From a virus, in the IMG/VR virus record IMGVR_UViG_3300032006_002122, positions 1-63,293 of that record: a stretch of DNA of 63,293 nucleotides; one strand, written 5' to 3'. Both the position numbers and the translations under genes were made by a program. Under the pieces are notes generated by a model. The model did no database searches, was not told the DNA's origin, and saw only the letters and a program-made list of their open reading frames with translations. Each line of letters starts with the position of its first letter. Within the stretch, counting starts at the first letter, position 1. This document shows positions 12,745-58,507 of this stretch, one piece after another.

Positions 12745-14391
12745 TTAAATTTGAGAGACGCTTTTTATTACGATGCCTTCTCGATTTCCGGTTTTTTCTC
12801 CAGATATGAGAACAGTATTTCCTTCCACTAGAAGGTCTTTATACTTTAACCACTCGTCAGAGAAAATAACAACAGAATCAAGCTCACAGGTGCTGTCTTC
12901 CACTGTTAGAAATCCCATTTTCATACCCTTGGATTTCCCTCTGGTTATAGTGTATTCTTCACATCTACTTATTGACACGGCAATTATAACCTTTCCCTCT
13001 CTCCCGTCAAATATTTCTTTGCATGTGCAGTTCGCCCGGCTGGTATCACAAGAATCAACTTTTGAATATGTAATAGAAACTCCCAAGTAATCCTCTTCCG
13101 TTTTTGATATCCAGTCTGGAGTATCTTCTAGGGGATAGGGTGGGTTATCAAGCTGTTTTAAAAGGTCTCCAACAATCTCTCTTCTGGAAACATTGAATGT
13201 TCCCCCGCCTTCTTTTGACAGGGGTTGAAGATCACGCATTGAATCTCTGAGGGAGTTCCATTTTTCAATACCTGACAAAATCCATTCCTGCTCTTTTTTT
13301 GTCAGTTTTTTCCAAGTGTCAAATTCGTACAACATTCTATTTCTGCTAACACCGCCGTGATCCAAACTTCCGGTAGAAATTAGAGAAGTTGTTAAAGTGG
13401 AAGTTATTTTATGAGAAACCGATACTAAAAATTCATACCAGCTAAAATCACTGATATTCTTATTCAGGGCTTCTTCCTGATCTTTTACGTTGGAAACCAA
13501 TTTGTCTACTTGGCTCTGACCTATAGACTTTATGTCTTTTAGTCCGAAATGTATCTTTTTATTATTTATTGAAAATTTGTCATTAATTATTTTAAGAGAC
13601 GGAGGGTAAACAAATATATTAGACAACTTGGCGTCTAAGACAAGCTCTTTGATTTCTTGTTGAGAATCTTGCTTGCCGTCTGCGTGATATAGGTAGCTAC
13701 AGTAAAAATCAAGAGGAAAATGACACTTGCAATAAGCAGACCAGTAACCACAAATAGCATAAGAAACTGCGTGACTCTTATTAAAAGCATATCTATTGGA
13801 TTTTTCGATCCAGCTAAATATCTCTTCCGCAATTTCTTTAGATACAACACCTTTGCTAGCCGCTCCTAAAAGAAAGGAATCTTTGACTTTTGACATCAGA
13901 TCGGCTTTTTTCTTGCCAATGGCTTTTCTGAGATTGTCAGCCTCTTTTAAGTCAAACCCAGCTATCTTTTGGGCTATTTGCATGCTCTGTTCTTGGTATA
14001 CAAGAACCCCTTGAGTGGACCTGAGAATTGGCTCAAGAGACTCGTGCATATATGTAACATCTTCAACTCCATTTTTTCGATCAGCATAGTGCTGTGTCAT
14101 GGATTTTCCGTCTACAATTGCTTTCAAGCAACCCGGACGAAGAAGTGCAGAAAGAGCGGCTAATTGCTCAATAGTCCTTGGTCGAATTCTTTTTGACCAA
14201 GATTTTCCCAAATTGCTTTCAAGCTGAAAGACCCCCTTGGTCCTCCCCTCGCATATTAAATTCCAAGTTTCTTCACAGTCATAATTGATATGATCTATGT
14301 CAAGAGATATAGACGGTAACCCGTTGTCTTCTCGTGTTTCTGTTCCAAGTTTTGTAAATTGACACCCACAGTTAAACGAACAATTTTCCAT
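12745..14391 (-). CDS. dnaE: DNA polymerase III alpha subunit, C-terminal part (fingers to OB fold)
   Basis: This 548-residue protein is the second half of a bacterial-type replicative polymerase. It begins with a small cysteine motif (CSFNCGC, residues 4-10), then enters the DnaE fingers at TKGVFQLES (51-59). Family motifs follow: ALLRPGCL, GVLVYQEQSMQIAQ, AIGKKKADLM and NKSHAVSYAICGYW. The end (about 455-548) looks like the OB-fold domain. It lacks the PHP domain and all three palm aspartates, which are in the gene at 15824-17776. ATG 14391 is preferred; a TTG lies six codons upstream. It overlaps the exonuclease gene by 20 bases. The two halves presumably assemble in trans. Confidence 0.93.
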   Translation of the reverse strand: MENCSFNCGCQFTKLGTETREDNGLPSISLDIDHINYDCEETWNLICEGRTKGVFQLESNLGKSWSKRIRPRTIEQLAALSALLRPGCLKAIVDGKSMTQHYADRKNGVEDVTYMHESLEPILRSTQGVLVYQEQSMQIAQKIAGFDLKEADNLRKAIGKKKADLMSKVKDSFLLGAASKGVVSKEIAEEIFSWIEKSNRYAFNKSHAVSYAICGYWSAYCKCHFPLDFYCSYLYHADGKQDSQQEIKELVLDAKLSNIFVYPPSLKIINDKFSINNKKIHFGLKDIKSIGQSQVDKLVSNVKDQEEALNKNISDFSWYEFLVSVSHKITSTLTTSLISTGSLDHGGVSRNRMLYEFDTWKKLTKKEQEWILSGIEKWNSLRDSMRDLQPLSKEGGGTFNVSRREIVGDLLKQLDNPPYPLEDTPDWISKTEEDYLGVSITYSKVDSCDTSRANCTCKEIFDGREGKVIIAVSISRCEEYTITRGKSKGMKMGFLTVEDSTCELDSVVIFSDEWLKYKDLLVEGNTVLISGEKTGNREGIVIKSVSQI

Positions 14392-15055
14392 CTGCAAAAG
14401 CTTTCTCAAATTTCGTCTTGGGAGCCATTGAACGATAAAACTTCATAAATCTTATAAGAATATTTGCAGTATCTTTTACATCCTTGAGTGCGTCATGGGC
14501 ATTTTCTGTGCTTAATCCCATCCAGTCTCTCATAGAATCCATACTGATAGATTTGATATCTGGATTATTTTCTGTCCATAGCCAAATAATATCCATAACA
14601 TCAATTTTATTGATTTTGCTAAACAGACCTTGCTCGTTAGTTTTTTTATTAGTTGGTCCATACTGTTGGCACATTCGCTCAACTATATGCATATCAAAAC
14701 CGTTTATATTATAACCAACAGGAATCGGGGCAAAGAATTGCGTTTTCTTAAAATTATATTTATTAACAAAGTTTGAAAACTTTTGCCACACTTGTTTGGG
14801 AGCGGGGGCTTTAGCCAACTCTTTTCTTGTTTTATTGGTTATTTCAAGAGCTTCGTCTTCAAGTGGGTCTAAACCCATCTCTATGGCTTTGTCGTCATCT
14901 AGTATTGGTCTTATTTCACTGTTAAAGGTGCCTCCCGGCTGCAATTTTAATTTCCTGCCGTGGATAGCGACCGCAGCTATTTGAGTGGGTTGGGTCTTGT
15001 GAGGGTTTCTAGATCCGGTTTCAAAATCAAGAACAATCAAGTCTCTATAATTCAT
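14372..15055 (-). CDS. DnaQ-like 3'-5' exonuclease (DEDDh)
   Basis: This 227-residue protein has the DEDDh exonuclease motifs. LIVLDFETGSRNP (7-19) supplies the first D and E. NGFDMHIVERM supplies the second D. NAHDALKDVKDTANIL supplies the H and the last D. Placed between the two halves of DNA polymerase III alpha, it is very likely the proofreading subunit. It overlaps the downstream polymerase gene by 20 bases and the upstream UDG gene by 11. Length is in the range of epsilon-type subunits. Confidence 0.92.
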   Translation of the reverse strand: MNYRDLIVLDFETGSRNPHKTQPTQIAAVAIHGRKLKLQPGGTFNSEIRPILDDDKAIEMGLDPLEDEALEITNKTRKELAKAPAPKQVWQKFSNFVNKYNFKKTQFFAPIPVGYNINGFDMHIVERMCQQYGPTNKKTNEQGLFSKINKIDVMDIIWLWTENNPDIKSISMDSMRDWMGLSTENAHDALKDVKDTANILIRFMKFYRSMAPKTKFEKAFADGKLFV

Positions 15056-15629: not shown

Positions 15630-15855
15630 ATAGTTGTTTATCCAATTGTAAAAACTTATCTACAGCATTGTCCATATTATTATATATGGCACTAAAGACT
15701 GAAGATAGTCTATAATCTTCACAATGAACCTGATAAGTATCAAGTCTTTGTCTTATTACTGTATTATAGTAATTTCCTACCCTGCAAATGCTTAGAGAGT
15801 TTTTCTCTATAGCGCCTCCACACTCAAGTATTTCCACACATGACTCTTTCTTCAT
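15565..15855 (-). CDS. Hypothetical protein between the polymerase halves, 96 aa
   Basis: This protein is not recognised. It has a good Shine-Dalgarno (AGGAG, 9 bases before ATG 15855), and its start overlaps the end of the polymerase N-terminal gene by 32 bases. Its end overlaps the UDG start by 65 bases in another frame. Residues 1-30 contain three cysteines, and the rest is helical. It could be a linker or assembly factor for the split polymerase, but nothing in the sequence shows this. I saw no intein block motifs in it. Confidence 0.6.
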   Translation of the reverse strand: MKKESCVEILECGGAIEKNSLSICRVGNYYNTVIRQRLDTYQVHCEDYRLSSVFSAIYNNMDNAVDKFLQLDKQLYAGNSAKNKKLQTMPPPQGYA

Positions 15856-17776
15856 TATCGAAAGCTCCTAATTTACATAGCTGGTCACGCACTCCCATTA
15901 TCTTGTCTAATAAAGAGACACCGAGAATATCAAATTTTACATGACCCATAGATTCTAAATCCTCCATTTCAAGTCCAGCAATTTTTTCTTTGCTGTTTTT
16001 TTGCCTCACCATTGGGCAAACAGTGTTCAAGTCGTGAGACGAAATAACCACGCCCGCTGCGTGTTTTCCTTGTGATTTGAAAGTTCCTTCAATTCTCATT
16101 GCTTGTTCAAAAAGCTTGGAGTATTCTCCATCAAGAATACCATCTTCGGTTAGGTAGCACCAGTCCTTGAGGCTGTCTGGTTGATTTACCAACGTCCACA
16201 TTATTACAGAAGAACTATCCATCTCTTGAAGCTGGTCAGAAACTTCTGCTTCATGGGGGAGATTCTTAGTTATCCTGTTCATCTCGTCGTAAGAACATGC
16301 ATCGTTGGCTCTGAGAACTTCTTTTATTGCGCTTCTCCCCTGTAGCCGACCAAACGTTATCATCTGGCCAACCTTTTTCTGACCATATTTATTTCTAATA
16401 TATTCTATTGCATCGTCTCTCTTGTCTGCTGGAATATCTATATCAATATCTGGAAGAGAAACGTGTTCTTCTGTATTTCTGCCCGCGTTATAAAATCTTT
16501 CAAAAATCAATCCGTATTCAATAGGATCTACACGAGTTATCCCAATGAGGTAAGAAATTAGACAACCGGCAGCAGATCCTCTCCCCGGACCCGGAATCCA
16601 GTTCTCCTGTCTTGCGTAACGAACAATATCTCTAACGATAAGAAAGTATCCAGCAAGGTTTGCTTCCTTTATTACGAATAGCTCTTCTTTAATTCTTTCT
16701 AGGTATATATTTAAATTTTCTTCGTCGTCTATTTTCCCATTATTTTTTAATAACTTTTTCCACCCCTCTCTACATAGAGATGTTAAGAGGTCGTGTTCAG
16801 AAGAATATCCTTCATGGTTAAATTTTGGAAGCATTGGTTTGTCTAATATGTCATATTCTTCGCAAGTCTCGGATATAGCCAAGCTATTTCTAAGCTCTTC
16901 TTCTGTGTGTAGATCCACCATTTCGTCTTCAGACGGTATGTGGTAATTATTAGAACGAAAGAACGAAGAAAGCCCAACTTCTTGACCTTCAGATAGCTTC
17001 TTTTTTACATTCTTTAGGGTTGTTTTTAGTGCCGCACACAGCAGGAGCCTCTGATCTACCGCATCCTCCTTGGTTGGGTAGTGCGAGTCTGCGGTGGCCA
17101 CAGCGGGTATCCTCGTCTCTCTAGAGACCTCTCTGAGGCAATCTCCGATAACCCTTGCTGCCGGGGAATTCTCTTGGTCGATCAGTTGAATCTCTATGTA
17201 AAAATTTCCATCGCCAAAGATTTCCTGATACTTATTGGACAAAATTTTCGCTTCTTCAAGATAGTTGTCTTTAAGATGCTGCTTAACCTCATTTTCAGAC
17301 TGGGAATTATAAGCCTTTTTCCAGTCGTGAAATAGTATATTAGCAAGATCACTTCCCATGTGTCCGCTAAAAGCTATGAGATTTCCATCACAGTATTCTG
17401 ATAAAATATCTAGATCCAGCCTTGGCTTGAAGTAAAAAAGTTCTTCATCATTACTTCTGGATGTAGCCTCGATTAGTCTCTCCCATCCCACTTTATTCTT
17501 TGCGAGAACCACAAGATGGCTAAGCGTTCTGTTTTCTTTATCCTTTATGGTTGCAGACTTTTCAGATAAATAAAACTCACACCCCAGTATAGGCTTTATG
17601 TCATTTTCTCTCATTGACTTTACAAAAGATACAGCACCGGACACAGTTCCGTGGTCTGTTATTGCGCAAGATTTGTATCCCAAATCCTTACATCTTTTAG
17701 CAACCTGTTTAGGTTTTGATAGACCGTCCAGTAAAGAGTAGTGAGTGTGCAAATGTAGAGGAACCCACTTAGACAT
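15824..17776 (-). CDS. dnaE: DNA polymerase III alpha subunit, N-terminal part (PHP and palm)
   Basis: This 650-residue protein opens with an intact PHP domain: LHLHTHYSLLDG (7-18) and ITDHGT (39-44). The polymerase core follows with GPGRGSAAG (396-404), LPDIDIDIP with D443, D445 and D447, and VKFDILG with D616, the equivalent of the third catalytic aspartate in DnaE. It stops 34 residues later, just before the fingers. The rest of the polymerase is encoded 1.4 kb downstream at 12745-14391. All residues for nucleotidyl transfer are here, but the nucleotide-binding fingers are in the other protein. The start is 2 bases after a small membrane-protein gene. Confidence 0.95.
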   Translation of the reverse strand: MSKWVPLHLHTHYSLLDGLSKPKQVAKRCKDLGYKSCAITDHGTVSGAVSFVKSMRENDIKPILGCEFYLSEKSATIKDKENRTLSHLVVLAKNKVGWERLIEATSRSNDEELFYFKPRLDLDILSEYCDGNLIAFSGHMGSDLANILFHDWKKAYNSQSENEVKQHLKDNYLEEAKILSNKYQEIFGDGNFYIEIQLIDQENSPAARVIGDCLREVSRETRIPAVATADSHYPTKEDAVDQRLLLCAALKTTLKNVKKKLSEGQEVGLSSFFRSNNYHIPSEDEMVDLHTEEELRNSLAISETCEEYDILDKPMLPKFNHEGYSSEHDLLTSLCREGWKKLLKNNGKIDDEENLNIYLERIKEELFVIKEANLAGYFLIVRDIVRYARQENWIPGPGRGSAAGCLISYLIGITRVDPIEYGLIFERFYNAGRNTEEHVSLPDIDIDIPADKRDDAIEYIRNKYGQKKVGQMITFGRLQGRSAIKEVLRANDACSYDEMNRITKNLPHEAEVSDQLQEMDSSSVIMWTLVNQPDSLKDWCYLTEDGILDGEYSKLFEQAMRIEGTFKSQGKHAAGVVISSHDLNTVCPMVRQKNSKEKIAGLEMEDLESMGHVKFDILGVSLLDKIMGVRDQLCKLGAFDNEERVMCGNT

Positions 17777-47754: not shown

Positions 47755-48594
47755 TTATACTACTGCTCTTCCTTTTAGTTTTTCCCAATCTTTTTCGGGT
47801 CTAGCCAAAAGATTTGTATTCCAAGCACCTTCTATTGTGTTTGCTCTTATACAAAGCTCTTGGGCTAAGCTCATGAGTGCGTTTAAATCTTTGGGAAAAC
47901 AGCTTCCTCCAAAACCGTAATGTCCATCCGGGCCGGGAACTGACCAGTGACTGTTGCCTAGCCTTTCGTCGTGAAGAGAATATTCTATAACTTTATCATA
48001 GTCTATATTTAGATTGCTACAAATAGCATGTATTTCATTTGCAAAAGAAACTTTAACAGCGAGAAAAGAATTGGTTAAATATTTTACCATTTCTGCTATT
48101 GTTGAGTCTGTTTTTATAACCTCAGCTTTTGGAAAAACTCTGTCATAAAATTGTTTCATAATTGTTGTTGCTGGTCTTGGACCGCCTAAAATTACACGGC
48201 TAGTATTTTTAAAGTCCTCTTCTGCGTTTCGTTCAAGTAAAAATTCAGGGTTAAAAACTATTTGAGAGTCTTGACATAAATCCTGAAGAGCCTTTGTTGT
48301 GTTTGGAGGAATGGTGGACTTAATTGCCACTATATTCTTTCTTCCGCTGCTGCAAGCCTCCTGAACAGATTTCTTAACTATTGATATATCGCAAGAGCCA
48401 TCTTCTTTCATGGGTGTGGGCACACAAACAAAAATAAGCTCACAGGCTCTAGACATGCTATATATGCTTTTATGTGTTGACAAATCTTTTTTAAACTTGT
48501 CATATGAATATACGTTGTAGTGAGGCTCGAAGCTCTTTAATAGAGAGCTTCCAACAAAACCCTGACCAATTATTCCAACATTTTGTATTTTCAT
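47755..48594 (-). CDS. UDP-glucose/GDP-mannose dehydrogenase family, short form
   Basis: This 279-residue protein has the Rossmann loop GQGFVGSS (10-17), FVCVPTPM and a catalytic-cysteine motif GFGGSCFPKD with C232. It would oxidise the C6 hydroxyl of a nucleotide sugar to the uronate. The usual enzyme is about 390-450 residues; the C-terminal substrate-binding domain is missing here, as in short phage versions. Activity may need a dimer or another partner. It shares a 4-base overlap with the aminotransferase gene. Confidence 0.85.
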   Translation of the reverse strand: MKIQNVGIIGQGFVGSSLLKSFEPHYNVYSYDKFKKDLSTHKSIYSMSRACELIFVCVPTPMKEDGSCDISIVKKSVQEACSSGRKNIVAIKSTIPPNTTKALQDLCQDSQIVFNPEFLLERNAEEDFKNTSRVILGGPRPATTIMKQFYDRVFPKAEVIKTDSTIAEMVKYLTNSFLAVKVSFANEIHAICSNLNIDYDKVIEYSLHDERLGNSHWSVPGPDGHYGFGGSCFPKDLNALMSLAQELCIRANTIEGAWNTNLLARPEKDWEKLKGRAVV

Positions 48595-49796
48595 AGACTT
48601 TGTGACGCCTTTTGTATAAAATATGTAGCAGCTTCTGCATCGTTTTTATCAAATGTTAGATGCGGTCTCAGTCTGATAGATTTTTCGCCACATTTAAGGG
48701 CAAGCATGTCTTTTGATAAAATAGTCATCATTCTGTCTCTGGACTCTGTATCTGGTAGATCAAATGCTATCATTAAACCTCTGCCTCTAACATTATCTAT
48801 ATAATCAATGTTAATGAGATTATTTAACAAATATTTTCCAACAGTTTTTGCGTTATCAATAAGGTTTTGATCTATTATGGCGTCAATTATATAACTGAAT
48901 CTAACCATATCAACAATATTCCCGCCCCAAGTAGAATTGATCCTACCACTAGTATTGAACACATTGTTTTCTATCTCGTCTATTCTGTCGGTGGAACAGA
49001 AGCCGCACACCTGTGTCTTCTTACCAAAGCACATCATGTCTGGTACAACATCAAAATGCTCGTATGCCCACATCTCCCCGGTTATTCCCAGACCTGTTTG
49101 AACTTCGTCAAATATCAACATGCAATCATTCTCATCCGATATATCTCTTAGCGAAACTAGGAAATCTTCTGATAAATGATTGTCGCCACCTTCGCCCTGT
49201 ATAGGCTCAACTATGATGGCAGCTACGTCGTCGTGAATAAATTCCCTTATTTCGTCCGCATCTGGATTGACCGTTGTCCAAGGAAATTTTGGATATCTGT
49301 CAGTCTTTTCTCTAGTTGTATTTGTCAGAGAGAGTGTGTATCCAGTTCTTCCGTGAAAGGCGTTTTTTAGATGAAAAACATCTAAGTTATTAATGTCTTC
49401 TACGCGATGGTATCCCATTTTTTGGGACTTCCAGTCGAAAGAGGCTTTTAGTGCATTTTCAACACCCAAGGCTCCACCATCAATAAAAAAATAATGATCA
49501 AAGTCTTCTGTAACTTCTGCAAATTTATCTACAAAATTTTCGTATTCCTTTGAATACATATCGCTATTTGCTAATTTGCACATGCCAGATCTTCCCATGT
49601 CCTTTTGGGCACGAATCATGGCAGAATGCTTCCAGCCAAGAGGTTGGCTAGCGAATTGTGAATAGCAATCTAAGTATCTATTTCCCTCTAGATCAGTTAT
49701 CCAAGACCCCAAGCTTCTTTGAAGATCCACTACTATATGGAATCCATCTGTTATTATATATCTATCTAGCTGTTCTATAATAGGAGAGCTAGGCAT
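48591..49796 (-). CDS. lat: Class III aminotransferase, L-lysine 6-aminotransferase-like
   Basis: This 401-residue PLP enzyme has IFDEVQTGLG (228-237) with the cofactor aspartate, and FGKKTQVCG (257-265) with the PLP lysine. INSTWGGNIVDM follows. FGKKTQVCG and the STWGGN segment match L-lysine epsilon-aminotransferase (LAT), which makes alpha-aminoadipate semialdehyde from lysine and 2-oxoglutarate. Ornithine aminotransferase is a less likely alternative. It overlaps the guanidine enzyme gene by 22 bases. This is very unusual in a phage. Confidence 0.82.
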   Translation of the reverse strand: MPSSPIIEQLDRYIITDGFHIVVDLQRSLGSWITDLEGNRYLDCYSQFASQPLGWKHSAMIRAQKDMGRSGMCKLANSDMYSKEYENFVDKFAEVTEDFDHYFFIDGGALGVENALKASFDWKSQKMGYHRVEDINNLDVFHLKNAFHGRTGYTLSLTNTTREKTDRYPKFPWTTVNPDADEIREFIHDDVAAIIVEPIQGEGGDNHLSEDFLVSLRDISDENDCMLIFDEVQTGLGITGEMWAYEHFDVVPDMMCFGKKTQVCGFCSTDRIDEIENNVFNTSGRINSTWGGNIVDMVRFSYIIDAIIDQNLIDNAKTVGKYLLNNLINIDYIDNVRGRGLMIAFDLPDTESRDRMMTILSKDMLALKCGEKSIRLRPHLTFDKNDAEAATYFIQKASQSL

Positions 49797-50587
49797 TTTG
49801 CAGCACCTCCAGCTTTAATAAATTCAGACATATTGCAATATATAACTTTCATGCCCAAAAAACATGATCCATAATCTTTTGACGGTGTTATTACTGTATC
49901 CCCCAAGCAAATACTATTGCAAACAAATTGTTTTGCTAAACCGTGCCCAACATTAACAAAGTTTATATATTTGCTGGTTTCAATAGCTTTCTTCATAACC
50001 GTTCTCACTATGTCTCTCATAGAACGTTCTGAGAATGCGTCTTGATAATACACAAAATTTCCACCACCATAAAAGAGACATGTATCTAGATGGTAGAATC
50101 TAGGGTCTACCAGATCACAAGAAACATATTCAACGCCAAGAATCTCTGCTATTATCGGGTGAGCCTTTTTGCTTGTTCTTAATCCATGTCCGATAAATAA
50201 AACATCTTCGACAAAAAGTGCGTCACCCTCTCCCTCAAAGTAAATTTCCTGTGGTAGCTCTTCTACAGTGTAGCCATTGTTAATAAACCATTGCTTAAAA
50301 AGTTCTCGTTCACCCTCTCTCTCTGGGTGTCTGAAATTTGGAAGTATTGCTGTCTTTCCTTTGACTAGGCCACCATTCGCAGTGAAAACCATGTCCGGTA
50401 AAGACATACGGGGTTGAATATATTTCAATTCAACCCCGCATTGAACAAGATTATCGTGAAATGAAGCCCATTGAGTTTGGGATTTTCCAAACTCAGGCTG
50501 CTTGCCAACGTCCATCCATGCGTTTATTTCATAACTTACATCAAAAAATGCAGGTGGGCATAAAAGTATTTCACTCGACTTTTGCAC
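49775..50587 (-). CDS. Guanidine-modifying enzyme family (DDAH/arginine dihydrolase-like)
   Basis: This 270-residue protein has the pentein-fold signature: D65 in LPDMVFTANGG, FEGEGDAL (118-124), H166 in FYHLDTC and the nucleophile C265 in GGAAKCL near the C terminus. Relatives are dimethylarginine dimethylaminohydrolase, arginine deiminase and cyanobacterial-type arginine dihydrolase. The substrate is likely arginine or a derivative, giving citrulline or ornithine. It lies between aminotransferase and aldehyde dehydrogenase genes, overlapping each. The specific activity cannot be read. Confidence 0.8.
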   Translation of the reverse strand: MQKSSEILLCPPAFFDVSYEINAWMDVGKQPEFGKSQTQWASFHDNLVQCGVELKYIQPRMSLPDMVFTANGGLVKGKTAILPNFRHPEREGERELFKQWFINNGYTVEELPQEIYFEGEGDALFVEDVLFIGHGLRTSKKAHPIIAEILGVEYVSCDLVDPRFYHLDTCLFYGGGNFVYYQDAFSERSMRDIVRTVMKKAIETSKYINFVNVGHGLAKQFVCNSICLGDTVITPSKDYGSCFLGMKVIYCNMSEFIKAGGAAKCLALLL

Positions 50588-52073
50588 CTGTGCTCATTCC
50601 TTGAGGGAAGTTTAGTGAGTCGCCATGATTAACAGTCCAAGCAACTTCGTGGGTCACCGCTCTGAAGGTTCTAGCTGCGCTAGGCTGTCCGTTTCCAGAC
50701 TTCTTTACCCCTCCGAACCCAAGATGAGACTCAGCAGCAATGCTGCCTCCATTCCAGTAGCCAAGACCAAAATCGCACTCATTTCTAATTCTTCTTGCTA
50801 CTTTGAAGTTTTCAGTTACTACCCCAAGAGAAAGTCCATAGTCAGTGTCGTTGTAAATCCTAATAGCATCACATACTGTATCGTAAGGAATGATTGCCAC
50901 ATGAGGCCCGAAAACTTCTTCTTTAAGGTATGGTGCATCTCTCCACTCTGTTTTATATACTGTAGGAGTTAAAAATAGCCCTCCATCAACCCGTTCTCCC
51001 ATAAGAAGAACGTCTGCTTCTGGATCTTCAGCTACTATTTCATTATACTTGACAACTCTATCCAATTGCTTTTCATTTATCAAAGATCCATAAAAAGTAC
51101 CATCGTCAAATGGGTCTCCGGTCTGTACTTGAGAACTTCTTTCAGCAAATTCTTCCGCAAATTTATCATATATAGACCGGTGGACAATAAGTCTTCCGGC
51201 AGACACGCATCGTTGACCGGAAAGCTTATAGGCGCTTGCTAGGCAAGCAGCCATTGCCATGTCGTAGTTGGCGTCTTCATGTATGATCACAGCAGATTTA
51301 CTACCCATCTCACAGGAACAAGTCTTGTGCCAACTCTCAGCGCAAACTTTTCTAACATGCATTCCAACGTCTGCGCTTCCTGTAAAGCATACATGGTCGA
51401 TATCTTTGTGGATTAAATCATCTCCAACCCGACCATCCCCTTGTATCATATTAAACACACCCGGAGGAAATCCTGCCTCGTGATAAAGCTCGGCAGTTAA
51501 TTGGCCAACCCAAGGAACATCTTCGCTAGGTTTAAGAATTACCGTGTTGCCCTCTACTAGAGCAGGTGCGGCACACCAGAAGCCGCCAATAGCAAAAGGA
51601 AAGTTAAAAGGAGCAACAATTGACACCACGCCCTTTGGCTTGCGAAGCATGTAAGCATCTTTTTCAGGTAGTTCAGATGCGATTGCTTCTCCATAAGGGG
51701 TCTTTCCTGTACTAAAGGCATATTGGGCCATGTGCAGGGCTTCGTTTACCTCTGCGATAGATTCATTGTAGACTTTTCCAGTTTCAATGCTTATTGCTTT
51801 AGCGATATCTTCTCGTCTTTTCTCGATTAGATTGGCTAGGGTGAGAAAGTATTCAGCACGCTTTATTCTACTATATTGTCTCCATCCTTCAAAGGATTCT
51901 CTTGCTGCTTGGTATGCGGCACTTACATCCTTGGATGAAGACTGTGGGAAAGAGCCAACAATCTTGCCGGTCGCTGGATTTGTGCTATCAAAATACTCTC
52001 CTTCAAGTGGATCTGGAGAGAAAAATTGACCATTAACGTAGTTTGCACCCTGTACTATTAGTGTAGTCGTCAT
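50571..52073 (-). CDS. NAD(P)-dependent aldehyde dehydrogenase
   Basis: This 500-residue enzyme has the ALDH core: FNFPF with N157, FTGSADVG (230-237), E255 in CEMGSKSAV and the nucleophile C289 in SGQRCVSAG. EEVFGPHVAI and LGFGGVKKSGNG follow near the end. Acting after the LAT-like enzyme it would oxidise alpha-aminoadipate semialdehyde to 2-aminoadipate; glutamate semialdehyde is an alternative substrate. Codon use looks more restricted than in neighbours, hinting at higher expression. It overlaps the VOC gene by 4 bases. Confidence 0.88.
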   Translation of the reverse strand: MTTTLIVQGANYVNGQFFSPDPLEGEYFDSTNPATGKIVGSFPQSSSKDVSAAYQAARESFEGWRQYSRIKRAEYFLTLANLIEKRREDIAKAISIETGKVYNESIAEVNEALHMAQYAFSTGKTPYGEAIASELPEKDAYMLRKPKGVVSIVAPFNFPFAIGGFWCAAPALVEGNTVILKPSEDVPWVGQLTAELYHEAGFPPGVFNMIQGDGRVGDDLIHKDIDHVCFTGSADVGMHVRKVCAESWHKTCSCEMGSKSAVIIHEDANYDMAMAACLASAYKLSGQRCVSAGRLIVHRSIYDKFAEEFAERSSQVQTGDPFDDGTFYGSLINEKQLDRVVKYNEIVAEDPEADVLLMGERVDGGLFLTPTVYKTEWRDAPYLKEEVFGPHVAIIPYDTVCDAIRIYNDTDYGLSLGVVTENFKVARRIRNECDFGLGYWNGGSIAAESHLGFGGVKKSGNGQPSAARTFRAVTHEVAWTVNHGDSLNFPQGMSTGAKVE

Positions 52074-52573
52074 TTTATTTCCTTGGTAGATTCCATGAGG
52101 TTTTTCACTGAATTTTCACAGAAGCCCTTGCTGCCTCTTTGTATTAATTCTATTATAACACCACCAAGATAGTCTATAGGTTTGGTGAAAATTTGTCTAA
52201 GGTTGTCTTCGGGGCAATCAATTATATCGTCCGTAATAAATTCTACTAAATTTCCGTCTCTCCACTCCTTAACAATTTTATCTATATCTTTCACCTTGTA
52301 GGCGATGTGGTGAATACCACCGTCTCCACCTTTAAATTCAACCCAATCACCAACAATAGATCCGGGGCTTCCGTCAGAAATAAAAATTTCTGGACCTTCG
52401 CGAATTAGGGCAACTGGATTAATGGGTGGAATAAGGGCGTAACAGTCTGCACTAGAGCCATCGTCGAACTGTATGTCGAATTCGGTCCCAACTTCGTAGT
52501 TAAGAGTGCCGGTAAAAAATTTAACAGCTTTGTGTCTATCTTTTACCCTGAAGGCAATATGGTCTAGTTTCAT
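52070..52573 (-). CDS. VOC-superfamily protein, HPPD-like
   Basis: This 167-residue protein has the paired beta-alpha-beta modules of glyoxalase/dioxygenases. KLDHIAFRVKD opens the first module, GGIHHIAYKVKDI the second with a metal histidine, and VIIELIQRGSKGFCENS the closing glutamate. The end resembles 4-hydroxyphenylpyruvate dioxygenase, but the protein is only half its length. It may be a metal-dependent epimerase, lyase or dioxygenase in the adjacent amino-acid block. Confidence 0.75.
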   Translation of the reverse strand: MKLDHIAFRVKDRHKAVKFFTGTLNYEVGTEFDIQFDDGSSADCYALIPPINPVALIREGPEIFISDGSPGSIVGDWVEFKGGDGGIHHIAYKVKDIDKIVKEWRDGNLVEFITDDIIDCPEDNLRQIFTKPIDYLGGVIIELIQRGSKGFCENSVKNLMESTKEIK

Positions 52574-52974
52574 AGAGGGTTACCGTATCTATCTTTTCCT
52601 TCCAGTGCCTCAATCTCTTTCCAGACCTCATCCCAGCCGTCTTCGTTGTCACCCCTGACTCTAGCGGCCTTGTCGTCGATGTAGATGGCTCCTGCTGGTT
52701 TCCCCATCCAAGCATGAGTGTATTTCACCCCGTGATTTTCCAGCCAGTCTGTCCACTCTCTGTAGCCCCTTTCGTACTGCCTGTTTATATTTCCCTTTTC
52801 TCTATCGCCGTATCTGGCAGTGTATAGTACAACTTCATAGCCCATCTCGTAAAGTTTATTAACTTGATTTATGCCATGTTGAAGTGGCTCAGCTTTTGAA
52901 TATTCACCACCATGGGTTTTGTCTGCAATAACCCCATCGCAATCCACTATTAATCTTTTGCTTGTATCAGGCAT
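52570..52974 (-). CDS. HAD-superfamily phosphatase
   Basis: This 134-residue protein has LIVDCDGVIAD (8-18), the DxD motif of HAD phosphatases. It also has VVLYTARYG (motif II threonine) and KPAGAIYIDDKA (motif III/IV lysine and aspartates). It is like the small capsule-associated phosphatases. It could dephosphorylate a sugar phosphate or nucleotide. It overlaps the VOC gene by 4 bases and is preceded by tRNA-Arg. Confidence 0.82.
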   Translation of the reverse strand: MPDTSKRLIVDCDGVIADKTHGGEYSKAEPLQHGINQVNKLYEMGYEVVLYTARYGDREKGNINRQYERGYREWTDWLENHGVKYTHAWMGKPAGAIYIDDKAARVRGDNEDGWDEVWKEIEALEGKDRYGNPL

Positions 52975-52990
52975 TCTAAACCTCCATAAA

Positions 52991-53064
52991 TACCCTCGGC
53001 ACGACTCGAACGTGCGACCTACGGTTTAGAAGACCGTTGCTCTATCCAACTGAGCTACGAGGGC
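52991..53064 (-). tRNA. tRNA-Arg (anticodon TCT)
   Basis: A full cloverleaf is visible on the minus strand: acceptor GCCCTCG with CGAGGGT, D-arm GCTCAGTTGGATAGAGC, anticodon stem ACGGT/ACCGT around loop CTTCTAA, and T-arm GCACG-TTCGAGT-CGTGC. Anticodon TCT reads AGA. No CCA is encoded. It lies inside the P3 operon between coding genes. Confidence 0.95.
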
Positions 53065-54433: not shown

Positions 54434-54525
54434 TCTTTTTTTAAAAATTTTTACTCACCAGCCAAGCTAGTGTTGTTGTCTGCTCCAACCGGAAAATTTA
54501 GCTGGAACAAGAAGAATAGACGAAG

Positions 54526-54598
54526 TACCCCCGGATGGAATCGAACCATCGACTACCGCTTTATAAGAACGGCGCTCTAACCACTGAGCTACGGGGGC
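54526..54598 (-). tRNA. tRNA-Ile (anticodon TAT)
   Basis: A full cloverleaf is visible on the minus strand: acceptor GCCCCCG with CGGGGGT, D-arm GCTCAGTGGTTAGAGC, anticodon stem CCGTT/AGCGG with one G-T pair around loop CTTATAA, and T-arm ATGG-TTCGATT-CCAT. Anticodon TAT reads ATA. No CCA is encoded. It lies upstream of promoter P3, so it belongs to the preceding unit. Confidence 0.93.
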
Positions 54599-56250: not shown

Positions 56251-56453
56251 TTACGTCTTTCTTTTTCCATTATGGAAACAATCTTAGAAAGTTCTTCTGT
56301 TGTCAATATTACGTTTTGTTTAGTTATAACCTTTGTTCCATCGAAGCAGGTTTGTATGAAAGAAATCTCAACCTTGCCCTCTGACAAATATACCTGTGTT
56401 TCCCAATGCAAATCCCCCATGCTTTCGCTGCATTTGTATATTAGAGAACTCAT
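56247..56453 (-). CDS. Hypothetical protein, 68 aa
   Basis: ATG 56453 is chosen because it overlaps the aldolase stop by 4 bases (ATGA). The protein is short and strand-rich (HWETQVYLSEGKVEISFIQ) with a helical tail. No family is recognised. Confidence 0.55.
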   Translation of the reverse strand: MSSLIYKCSESMGDLHWETQVYLSEGKVEISFIQTCFDGTKVITKQNVILTTEELSKIVSIMEKERRK

Positions 56454-57415
56454 AAAGCACCGTGTGTTGCGGCACTGCACTCTCTAGCACGTTCAATAAA
56501 TGAGCTTTGGGCTTTTTCTTTGTTTCCATTAGACCAGTGTTCAAGGCATTGTTTTTGAAGCTCTCTGCCAAACGAAAAAGAAACATACCACGGGTGAAGC
56601 TCTTCTTTATTTATTAAAGATAAATGTTCAGCGGCCTCGCCGTCTGGTTGTCCACCGCTTAAAAAGGCTATCATTGGAACCGCTGCTGGAACAGACCTGA
56701 GAAGACATCTCTTTGTAAAGTCTGCGGTAACTTCTCGTCTGTCCAGAGAATTCCAAAAATTAACATTGTCATATCCCGAAAGAACCATATTTGGTTTTAA
56801 TATCATTTCTTCCAAGGAAACATTTTCATAAAACAGCGCTTCAAAAACTATATTCAGGGTTCTCTCTGTTATCTCTAGGGAGTCCTCTATAGAGTGACCA
56901 CCATCCATGATAACTTCTGGCTCAACTATTGGGATCAAACCCTGAAGCTGGCTTTTTTTTGCGTATCTGGCAAGTGTGTAGGCATTTGCTGTTATTCCGC
57001 CAACACTGTTATTCGGGTTAATTACACCTCTCCACTTAGTAAAAGTGGCTCCGAGTTTCCTGTACTCTTCAAGCCTCTCGTCGAGACCGTCCATTCCCTC
57101 GGTGAGTTTTTCGCCCCTCTTGTGATTATCGTAAGGAACTGCACCTTTGTCAACTTTTACACCTAGTAAAATTCCCTTGTCCCTAAGTGGTTTAATGGTT
57201 GCTTCTGTTCTTATTGTTTCATCAAATAGAATAACTCCGCTAATATAGTTTTCTATACCGGGAGAGCTAAAAAGAGTTTGTCTATAGTCATGTCTGCTCT
57301 CTGGGGTAGACTCTACACCAACGGACTTAAGACGTTTTGCTATGGTGGGGGAACTCTCATCTGCTGCAAGAATTCCTTTTCCAAATATACTTATTCTAGC
57401 TATCGTGTATACCAT
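56450..57415 (-). CDS. Class I fructose-bisphosphate aldolase
   Basis: This 321-residue protein matches the eukaryotic/bacterial class I aldolase. It has GKGILAADESSPTIAKRL (12-29), GVKVDKGAVPY (86-96), FTKWRGV (125-131), IVEPEV (164-169) and MILKPNMVLSG with the Schiff-base lysine K207. It cleaves fructose-1,6-bisphosphate to two trioses. ATG 57415 has SD GAGGT 6 bases upstream; longer starts overlap the GMP-reductase gene. The usual C-terminal tyrosine is not seen (it ends THGAL). A host-type carbon enzyme in a phage suggests metabolic steering. Confidence 0.92.
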   Translation of the reverse strand: MVYTIARISIFGKGILAADESSPTIAKRLKSVGVESTPESRHDYRQTLFSSPGIENYISGVILFDETIRTEATIKPLRDKGILLGVKVDKGAVPYDNHKRGEKLTEGMDGLDERLEEYRKLGATFTKWRGVINPNNSVGGITANAYTLARYAKKSQLQGLIPIVEPEVIMDGGHSIEDSLEITERTLNIVFEALFYENVSLEEMILKPNMVLSGYDNVNFWNSLDRREVTADFTKRCLLRSVPAAVPMIAFLSGGQPDGEAAEHLSLINKEELHPWYVSFSFGRELQKQCLEHWSNGNKEKAQSSFIERARECSAATHGAL

Positions 57416-57422
57416 AGTTACC

Positions 57423-58454
57423 TCACACATTGATATCATGCACTCTATTTACTCTAACAAAAGTAGCGCATTTTGGCAAGTCTTTTAGTGTTCTTGCTCC
57501 AACATAAGCACATGCACTTCTAAGCCCCCCAGTTATTTCCTGAATAACATTCATAACTGGTCCTTTGTATTCAACGGATGTAGATTTTCCTTCAGAGGTT
57601 CTGTAGGTTCCAACCCCTCCGTTGTGGGCTTTCATTGCATCTTCGCTAGACATTCCGTAAAACTTTAATGACTTATTCCCGTCTTTATATTGCCACTCTC
57701 CCTCGCATTCATCTGTACCCGCAAACATTCCTCCAAGCATTACAAAATCAGCACCAGCAGCAAACGCCTTAACGACATCGCCGGGGTGTCTGCAACCTCC
57801 ATCGGCACAGATATGTCCTCCTAGACCGTGAGCAGCATCGGCACATTCAATTATTGCAGAAATTTGTGGGTATCCGCAACCTGTTATCCTTCTCGTAGTG
57901 CATACACTTCCCGGCCCAATACCAATCTTTACTATGTCTGCGCCTCCGCTGATAAGAAGTTCGCTAACCATTTCTGGTGTACAAACATTCCCAGCCATAA
58001 TACATGAATGAGGAAAACTATCTCTGATTCTTTTAACATGGTCAACAAAAACTTTTTGATACCCATTTGCAACATCAATACATATCTTGTATACTTCTGA
58101 CCAGCCGGGATCTAAAACACTGATTAGTTTCTCTACATCCTCTTCTTTTATACCTATTGTATAAAAAGTATTTAATCTCGTTGCTTTGCCAAAGAAGTCA
58201 ACAAGGTCATCTAAGGTGTAGTATTTATGCAAACACGTTTGCATTCTTTCCTGTTCCAGTTGATCCGACATAGCAAAAGTACCAACGGTATCCATGTTGG
58301 CAGCAATTATAGGAACAATGGTTTCAGTTATACCGGAGTTTAAATAGCGATATGTCTTCTCAATGTTAACACCAGACCTGCTGCTTAAAGTCGACCTCTT
58401 CGGTCTAATTAGAACGTCGTTAAAATCCAGCTTGATTTCATTTTCAATAATCAT
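57423..58454 (-). CDS. guaC: GMP reductase
   Basis: This 343-residue TIM-barrel enzyme of the IMPDH/GMPR family has LDFNDVLIRPKRST, IIAANMDTVG, KIGIGPGSVCTTR with the catalytic cysteine, and ADGGCRHPGDVVKA. FYGMSSEDAM and TSEGKSTSVEYKGPV, without a CBS domain, favour GMP reductase over IMP dehydrogenase. It converts GMP to IMP with NADPH. ATG 58454 has a GGAAG site 10 bases upstream. It lies just after a terminator. Confidence 0.92.
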   Translation of the reverse strand: MIIENEIKLDFNDVLIRPKRSTLSSRSGVNIEKTYRYLNSGITETIVPIIAANMDTVGTFAMSDQLEQERMQTCLHKYYTLDDLVDFFGKATRLNTFYTIGIKEEDVEKLISVLDPGWSEVYKICIDVANGYQKVFVDHVKRIRDSFPHSCIMAGNVCTPEMVSELLISGGADIVKIGIGPGSVCTTRRITGCGYPQISAIIECADAAHGLGGHICADGGCRHPGDVVKAFAAGADFVMLGGMFAGTDECEGEWQYKDGNKSLKFYGMSSEDAMKAHNGGVGTYRTSEGKSTSVEYKGPVMNVIQEITGGLRSACAYVGARTLKDLPKCATFVRVNRVHDINV

Positions 58455-58473
58455 AATTAAATCTTCCGCATAC

Positions 58474-58507
58474 ACAATAAAAGACCGGCGACTAAAGCCA
58501 CCGGCCT
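58474..58507 (-). terminator. Rho-independent terminator
   Basis: On the minus strand an 11-bp stem (58507-58497 with 58492-58482, loop of four) is followed by TTTTATTG. It closes the rIIB-containing unit 30 bases after the stop of the 58538-58780 gene, and precedes GMP reductase. Confidence 0.9.

Follow-up and report, generated by a model that had tools for sequence, protein, structure and literature searches.

Uncultured phages carry a conserved module built around an aldehyde dehydrogenase (ALDH), in which the partner predicted to produce 2-aminoadipate semialdehyde (AASA) is exchangeable, a finding that exceeds what had originally been claimed for this DNA. The window analysed here is the whole of the virus contig IMGVR_UViG_3300032006_002122 (63,293 bases), where the partner is a class III aminotransferase of the lysine 6-aminotransferase (LAT) type, encoded next to a pentein-fold guanidine enzyme. 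We consider it probable that these genes make up a phage lysine-degrading module, which would lead from lysine to 2-aminoadipate with an arginine arm beside it.

A contiguous block of metabolic genes

The window carries phage replication genes, namely a DNA polymerase in two ORFs, a DnaB-like helicase and a UvsX-like recombinase, and RIIA/RIIB-like genes are also present. The split polymerase ORFs lie at 12745-14409 and 15824-17776, with other genes in between. As the initial annotation had described, the VOC-superfamily, ALDH, pentein and aminotransferase genes form one contiguous run on the minus strand (Table 1), with mutual overlaps of 4 nt (VOC/ALDH), 17 nt (ALDH/pentein) and 22 nt (pentein/aminotransferase). 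Its extent had been given as these four genes, but the block is larger, as a short UDP-glucose-dehydrogenase-like (UGD-like) gene usually accompanies them; here this gene and a HAD-family gene flank the four, each with a 4-nt overlap. The residues that had been singled out (D65, H166 and C265 of the pentein, C289 and E255 of the ALDH, FGKKTQVCG of the aminotransferase) are present and are invariant in relatives, save for one FGKKSQVCG.

The block had also been placed behind a promoter, P3. This was discarded, as matches to the promoter consensus in the region are no commoner than in shuffled sequence (20 vs 21.4 +/- 4.5). Immediately upstream of the block are a tRNA-Arg (TCT, 52991-53064) and a tRNA-Ile (TAT, 54525-54598). 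Elsewhere in the window, an IMPDH/GMP-reductase-like gene (57423-58475) overlaps the gene (56450-57439) of a class I fructose-bisphosphate aldolase that scores above its curated cut-off.

Table 1. Positions of the block and its flanking genes in the window.
Feature	Position	Strand	Length	Match or remark
HAD-family phosphatase, EcbF/BcbF-like, upstream neighbour	52570-52974	minus		TIGR01689 4e-14, below cut-off
VOC-superfamily protein	52070-52573	minus	167 aa	PF13669 4e-9
ALDH	50571-52073	minus	500 aa	PF00171 7.5e-130
Pentein-fold guanidine enzyme, predicted ArgZ type	49775-50587	minus	270 aa	single domain, GTG start
Overlap of pentein 3' end and LAT start	49775-49796	minus	22 nt	
Class III aminotransferase, LAT type by sequence	48591-49796	minus	401 aa	PF00202 1e-84
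Short UDP-glucose-dehydrogenase-like protein (UGD-like)	47755-48594	minus	279 aa	PF03721 + PF00984; NDP-sugDHase 194 bits

Conservation of the cassette in other viral contigs

Scans of a viral collection returned ALDH, pentein and aminotransferase genes in identical order in 16 other viral contigs (L002-L014, L150, L154 and L155), some of which (e.g. L010 and L014) may stem from a single phage recovered in separate samples; an additional contig, L060, terminates within the pentein. These scans used short peptide patterns, so the families are sampled. The pentein, with an overlap of exactly the length seen in the window, is found in every LAT contig that they returned (16/16 besides the window). 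At least three genomic settings can be told apart. In one, glycan-type genes lie alongside, as in the window. In L009 and L014 the cassette sits between two DNA-polymerase halves, and the L010 contig ends early. In L005 it lies behind a polymerase and glycosyltransferases, with VOC and UGD-like genes missing, and in L013 the UGD-like gene is missing and an aldolase is next. A UGD-like or VOC gene is likewise missing from L003, these contigs being fragments, so that a gene missing from a contig need not be missing from the phage.

Mean identity within the cassette is 56% for the pentein, 71% for the LAT and 75% for the ALDH, the pentein diverging fastest. In trees, the cassette penteins form one clade, as do the cassette LATs, and the cassette ALDHs nearly so. 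The conservation of gene order is far beyond chance and identifies a conserved phage cassette. Because order and overlap are kept while the surroundings change, a functional module is the best reading of the cassette. Separate acquisition of unconnected genes, with each enzyme acting on its own host substrate and adjacency reflecting the tight packing of phage genes, would fit the faster divergence of the pentein and the finding that about 45 other viral contigs (L015-L059) have related penteins but neither LAT nor ALDH. It would, however, have to account for 17 phage contigs that agree in order and overlap although they represent at least three settings, and for the clades just described, and we regard it as extremely unlikely. 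Several of the stand-alone ArgZ-like penteins lie near a cytidylyltransferase-like gene, and the profiles picked up neither a class III aminotransferase nor an ALDH among the neighbours of these penteins; such neighbourhoods proved uninformative and were set aside as a clue to the pathway.

Other genes were observed in these contigs. Three relatives encode a 121-aa protein between ALDH and pentein (L003:4188-4553, L150:9497-9862 and L155:9467-9832); Pfam assigns the L003 copy to the SET domain, and those in L150 and L155 look similar. Moreover, a gene of the ornithine cyclodeaminase/mu-crystallin family occurs in cassette or ALDH contigs (L013:14569-15480, also L009, L010, L014 and L217), possibly encoding a further enzyme of ornithine/lysine metabolism.

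Family placement of the three enzymes

Judged by its sequence, the aminotransferase is by descent of LAT type and no standard ornithine aminotransferase (OAT). It scores 454.7 bits against the LAT family model (LAT_fam, TIGR03251), below the curated cut-off of 520.8, and at most 227 bits against any other family, with 157 bits against the OAT model TIGR01885 (cut-off 378.4). LATs of the bacterial phylum KSB1 that lie above the TIGR03251 cut-off score 626-701 bits. Profile matching to the PDB gave 417 bits for the Mycobacterium tuberculosis (Mtb) LAT Rv3290c vs 199 for the next solved family. In a tree with LATs, OATs, ArgD, AstC, GabT, PuuE and PatA, the phage proteins fall within the LAT group (100% SH-aLRT, long stem), and OATs, ArgD, AstC and GabT fall outside it. 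The PLP lysine Lys300 and the substrate-pocket residues Arg170, Glu243, Asn328, Thr330 and Arg422 (Mtb numbering) are all kept; we take their roles, including contact of Asn328 with the substrate, to be those assigned from the Rv3290c structures. The initial annotation had raised an ornithine-specific aminotransferase as an alternative, and the sequence argues against it: the OATs form a clade of their own, and where Asn328/Thr330/Trp331 are kept in 13/13 phage LATs the OATs have Gly/Thr/Phe or Tyr. Ornithine is a secondary substrate of some LATs, and such activity is possible for the phage LAT.

The phage LATs are without about 30 residues found in other LATs, the shortening lying around Mtb residues 196-225, and in an AlphaFold model of the protein (mean pLDDT 63) the pocket was not readable. 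The LATs returned by a scan of genome contigs are only 41-48% identical, and no cellular donor or host of the cassette was identified there.

For the pentein, two families had been in view, of which the ArgZ type is favoured over DDAH: a profile search of the PDB gave 322 bits for ArgZ (Sll1336) and 306 for AgrE vs 81 for DDAH. Against the NCBIfam models, it scores below the curated cut-offs of both Arg_dihydro NF052232 (ArgZ; 217.7 bits, cut-off 450) and DDAH NF045659 (209.4 bits, cut-off 300). N71, which corresponds to Asn71 of ArgZ, is invariant in 24 phage sequences along with H166, C265 and D65; the ArgZ chain of PDB entry 6juz has another residue at the aligned Asn. The second domain of ArgZ is missing from the phage protein. 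An arginine dihydrolase with ornithine as its product is the best prediction, and the step from arginine to ornithine stands as such.

The ALDH retains the catalytic C289, general-base E255, oxyanion N157 and NAD-binding K181; Arg288 precedes the catalytic Cys and the anchor loop reads NGGSIAAESHL. In a tree it forms a separate phage clade together with its counterpart from a 595-kb phage and lies outside the clades of P6C dehydrogenases, P5C dehydrogenases (RocA/PutA) and KSB1 LAT-neighbour ALDHs. A placement in ALDH7 was thus not borne out (269 bits against the P6C dehydrogenase/ALDH7 model NF050084, cut-off 730); the P5C dehydrogenase model TIGR01237/RocA gave 279 bits (cut-off 660). Because of this position and score relative to the P6C dehydrogenases, we infer the ALDH substrate from its partners. 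The AE of the loop is common to P6C dehydrogenases and to the ALDHs beside LAT in KSB1; at this point GAL or GAV is seen in P5C dehydrogenases and GAA in AstD.

Exchange of the partner enzyme in related phages

A scan with the ALDH alignment yielded 73 viral loci. Among them are 43 without LAT for which 6 kb or more of downstream sequence is available, and in 42 of these a saccharopine/lysine-dehydrogenase-like (SDH-like) gene lies nearby. By profile, its product matches the L-lysine dehydrogenase 3abi (137 bits) and human AASS (75 bits). Its structural model (pLDDT 89) has 3abi as the best match (Z 37.6 over 328 residues, rmsd 2.5 A), followed by carboxyspermidine dehydrogenases (Z 33.4) and AASS (Z 32). 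Fold and motifs resemble those of 3abi and AASS, and we predict a lysine/saccharopine-dehydrogenase-like enzyme; with carboxyspermidine dehydrogenase as structural runner-up, the family could be another member of this fold group. At one locus (L160, G131:C1:112516-113619) one search gave the SDH-like frame with an internal TGA, although the alignment includes it as an open frame of 367 aa.

The SDH-like gene is absent from seven LAT contigs (six of 38-161 kb and the window), LAT is absent from six SDH contigs of 118-178 kb, and the two occur together in five contigs. In one of these LAT-bearing contigs, L013, the aldolase is located between the LAT and the SDH-like gene. The ALDH shows the loop NGGSIAAESH and an Arg in front of the catalytic Cys whether its partner is LAT or the SDH-like enzyme. 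The product of LAT is AASA (PMC4726150), which lysine dehydrogenase and saccharopine dehydrogenase both release (PMC7253579, PMC9437556). Since the SDH-like enzyme replaces LAT, would share its product and is found with the same ALDH loop, lysine to 2-aminoadipate is the best-supported route. The proposal that LAT and ALDH would together convert lysine to 2-aminoadipate therefore finds support in the aminotransferase tree and residues and, above all, in this exchange of partners.

A predicted route from lysine, with an arginine arm

In the scheme that we infer, LAT would use 2-oxoglutarate as acceptor for the epsilon-amino group of lysine, the products being glutamate and AASA, which equilibrates with P6C. 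The ALDH would oxidise AASA to 2-aminoadipate with NAD(P)+, while the pentein would hydrolyse arginine to ornithine, 2 NH3 and CO2, and ornithine might pass via LAT and ALDH on to glutamate. If the flux runs in this direction, infection would tap basic amino acids, either as a source of glutamate, ammonia and reducing power or to obtain aminoadipate itself. The arginine to ornithine step looks like a side arm, and onward flow to glutamate through LAT is possible: the pentein is linked to LAT and not to the SDH-like enzyme, so that ornithine is perhaps a second LAT substrate, and the fact that every LAT contig in these scans has the pentein, joined by the 22-nt overlap, would fit this.

The same facts can be arranged as a linear arginine route, equivalent to the AST pathway minus succinylation, in which the pentein supplies ornithine from arginine, the main substrate of the LAT-like enzyme is this ornithine, and glutamate semialdehyde is turned into glutamate by the ALDH. 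An arginine dihydrolase is indeed the nearest relative of the pentein, whose gene overlaps that of the aminotransferase in all 16 other LAT contigs and is absent near ALDHs with an SDH-like partner only; moreover, E. coli ast has the same three enzyme classes (AstB, AstC and AstD). However, the aminotransferase has the placement and residues of a LAT and not an OAT, loci that have no LAT combine the same ALDH with the SDH-like enzyme, a huge phage with sister LAT and ALDH has no detectable pentein, and the AE of the ALDH loop is unlike the GAL, GAV or GAA of P5C dehydrogenases and AstD. We consider this linear arginine route unlikely. Somewhat more plausible, though put forward tentatively, is a fuller version of the lysine scheme, a widespread phage module in which an interchangeable AASA-making step (LAT or SDH-like) would feed the phage ALDH and the linked VOC protein, and the LAT-ALDH pair would take both lysine and pentein-made ornithine, draining the two into glutamate and aminoadipate.

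Several points count against the lysine reading. Besides the placement of the ALDH, the constant company of pentein and LAT and the structural runner-up of the SDH-like protein, the LAT and pentein scores are under the curated cut-offs, and the VOC protein is without a place in the pathway. The VOC gene lies directly upstream of the ALDH in 50 of the 72 loci with enough upstream sequence. Its conserved His5, His88/89 and Glu142, putative metal ligands in the alignment, together with weak matches to methylmalonyl-CoA epimerase and HPPD (about 44 bits each), point to a metal enzyme. A lysine-pathway enzyme of VOC-like kind, HglS, is known (PMC7286885); no DUF1338 match was seen in the phage protein, and an HglS-type role in 2-oxoadipate oxidation is speculation.

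The UGD-like protein has the N-terminal and central domains only, the C-terminal UDP-binding domain being missing in 11/11 cassette copies; its GGSCFPKD motif, with the catalytic Cys, is invariant, and its gene adjoins LAT in most LAT contigs. The HAD neighbour, 74-85% identical, lies beside VOC or ALDH in many LAT contigs. Any roles for these proteins are conjectural, and one that would tie them to the cassette is building-block synthesis, with aminoadipate, AASA/P6C or ornithine as precursor for a phage surface glycan, a modified base or an osmolyte and with a contribution from the UGD-like, HAD, VOC and glycosyltransferase genes. Glycan-type genes do surround the cassette in the window, the UGD-like gene moves along with it, the VOC gene keeps its position upstream of the ALDH, and a marine bacterium uses aminoadipate as an osmolyte (PMC4334477). 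Yet no transferase or ligase for attaching aminoadipate was recognised among the genes, the blocks of L009 and L014 between DNA-polymerase halves are away from glycan genes, and the copies in L005, L013 and L003 are missing UGD or VOC. We judge this explanation improbable, less so than a chance assembly of unconnected genes.

Under the preferred reading of a lysine-degrading module, one possible purpose is aminoadipate as an osmolyte, and another is to furnish phage synthesis with glutamate, ammonia and reducing power. To our knowledge, reports of metabolic genes in phages usually concern isolated reactions taken over from the host. In the present case, a series of successive reactions in one amino-acid degradation route, via AASA, would travel together in phages. 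The use of unrelated enzymes for the first of them among related phages is strong comparative evidence of selection on the pathway itself. The scheme predicts that 2-aminoadipate and glutamate go up and lysine goes down in infected cells, and it would extend the list of processes that phages may redirect in natural communities to lysine and arginine turnover.

Comparison with known systems

The initial annotation knew of no such block in phages, and we too found no phage report of the pathway in the openly licensed literature searched, nor any openly licensed paper linking LAT or saccharopine dehydrogenase to phage auxiliary metabolic genes. The closest phage parallel is the huge phage LR756511 (595 kb), which has a sister LAT (53%) and a sister ALDH (55%); there, however, about 184 kb separates the two, and a pentein and an SDH-like gene were undetected.

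Like the cassette, the AST pathway of E. coli (astCADBE) combines a pentein dihydrolase, a class III aminotransferase and an ALDH. In contrast, the phage aminotransferase is LAT-type and not AstC, the pentein is ArgZ-type and not AstB, and no succinyltransferase or desuccinylase of AST type was seen with them. ArgZ/AgrE (Sll1336, Alr4995) gives the best match across the whole catalytic domain of the pentein, with Asn71, His and Cys kept, but the phage protein is without the ornithine cyclodeaminase half and adjoins an aminotransferase instead.

A LAT with an adjacent ALDH is also found in the sampled KSB1 genomes and as lat/pcd in actinobacteria (PMC9854754). These share with the phages the aminotransferase family, the conserved residues and the pairing with an ALDH; the phage LATs, however, are a clade of their own with a shortened region, and the phage ALDH belongs to a different clade. 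The LATs of KSB1 have ALDH neighbours but no pentein, and no beta-lactam genes were seen with the phage cassette.

Lastly, the marine bacterium Ruegeria pomeroyi has a verified gene pair for lysine dehydrogenase and AASA dehydrogenase (lysdh-aasadh, SPO0234-SPO0235), and aminoadipate serves it as an osmolyte (PMC4334477). The phage ALDH lies outside the sampled P6C dehydrogenase clade, and the window, being that of a phage, has a LAT in place of a dehydrogenase and adds an ArgZ-like pentein and a VOC protein. The likeness lies in the arrangement, in which a predicted AASA-making enzyme is set beside an aldehyde dehydrogenase, and in the SDH-like protein of the related phages, which falls in the lysine/saccharopine dehydrogenase fold group.
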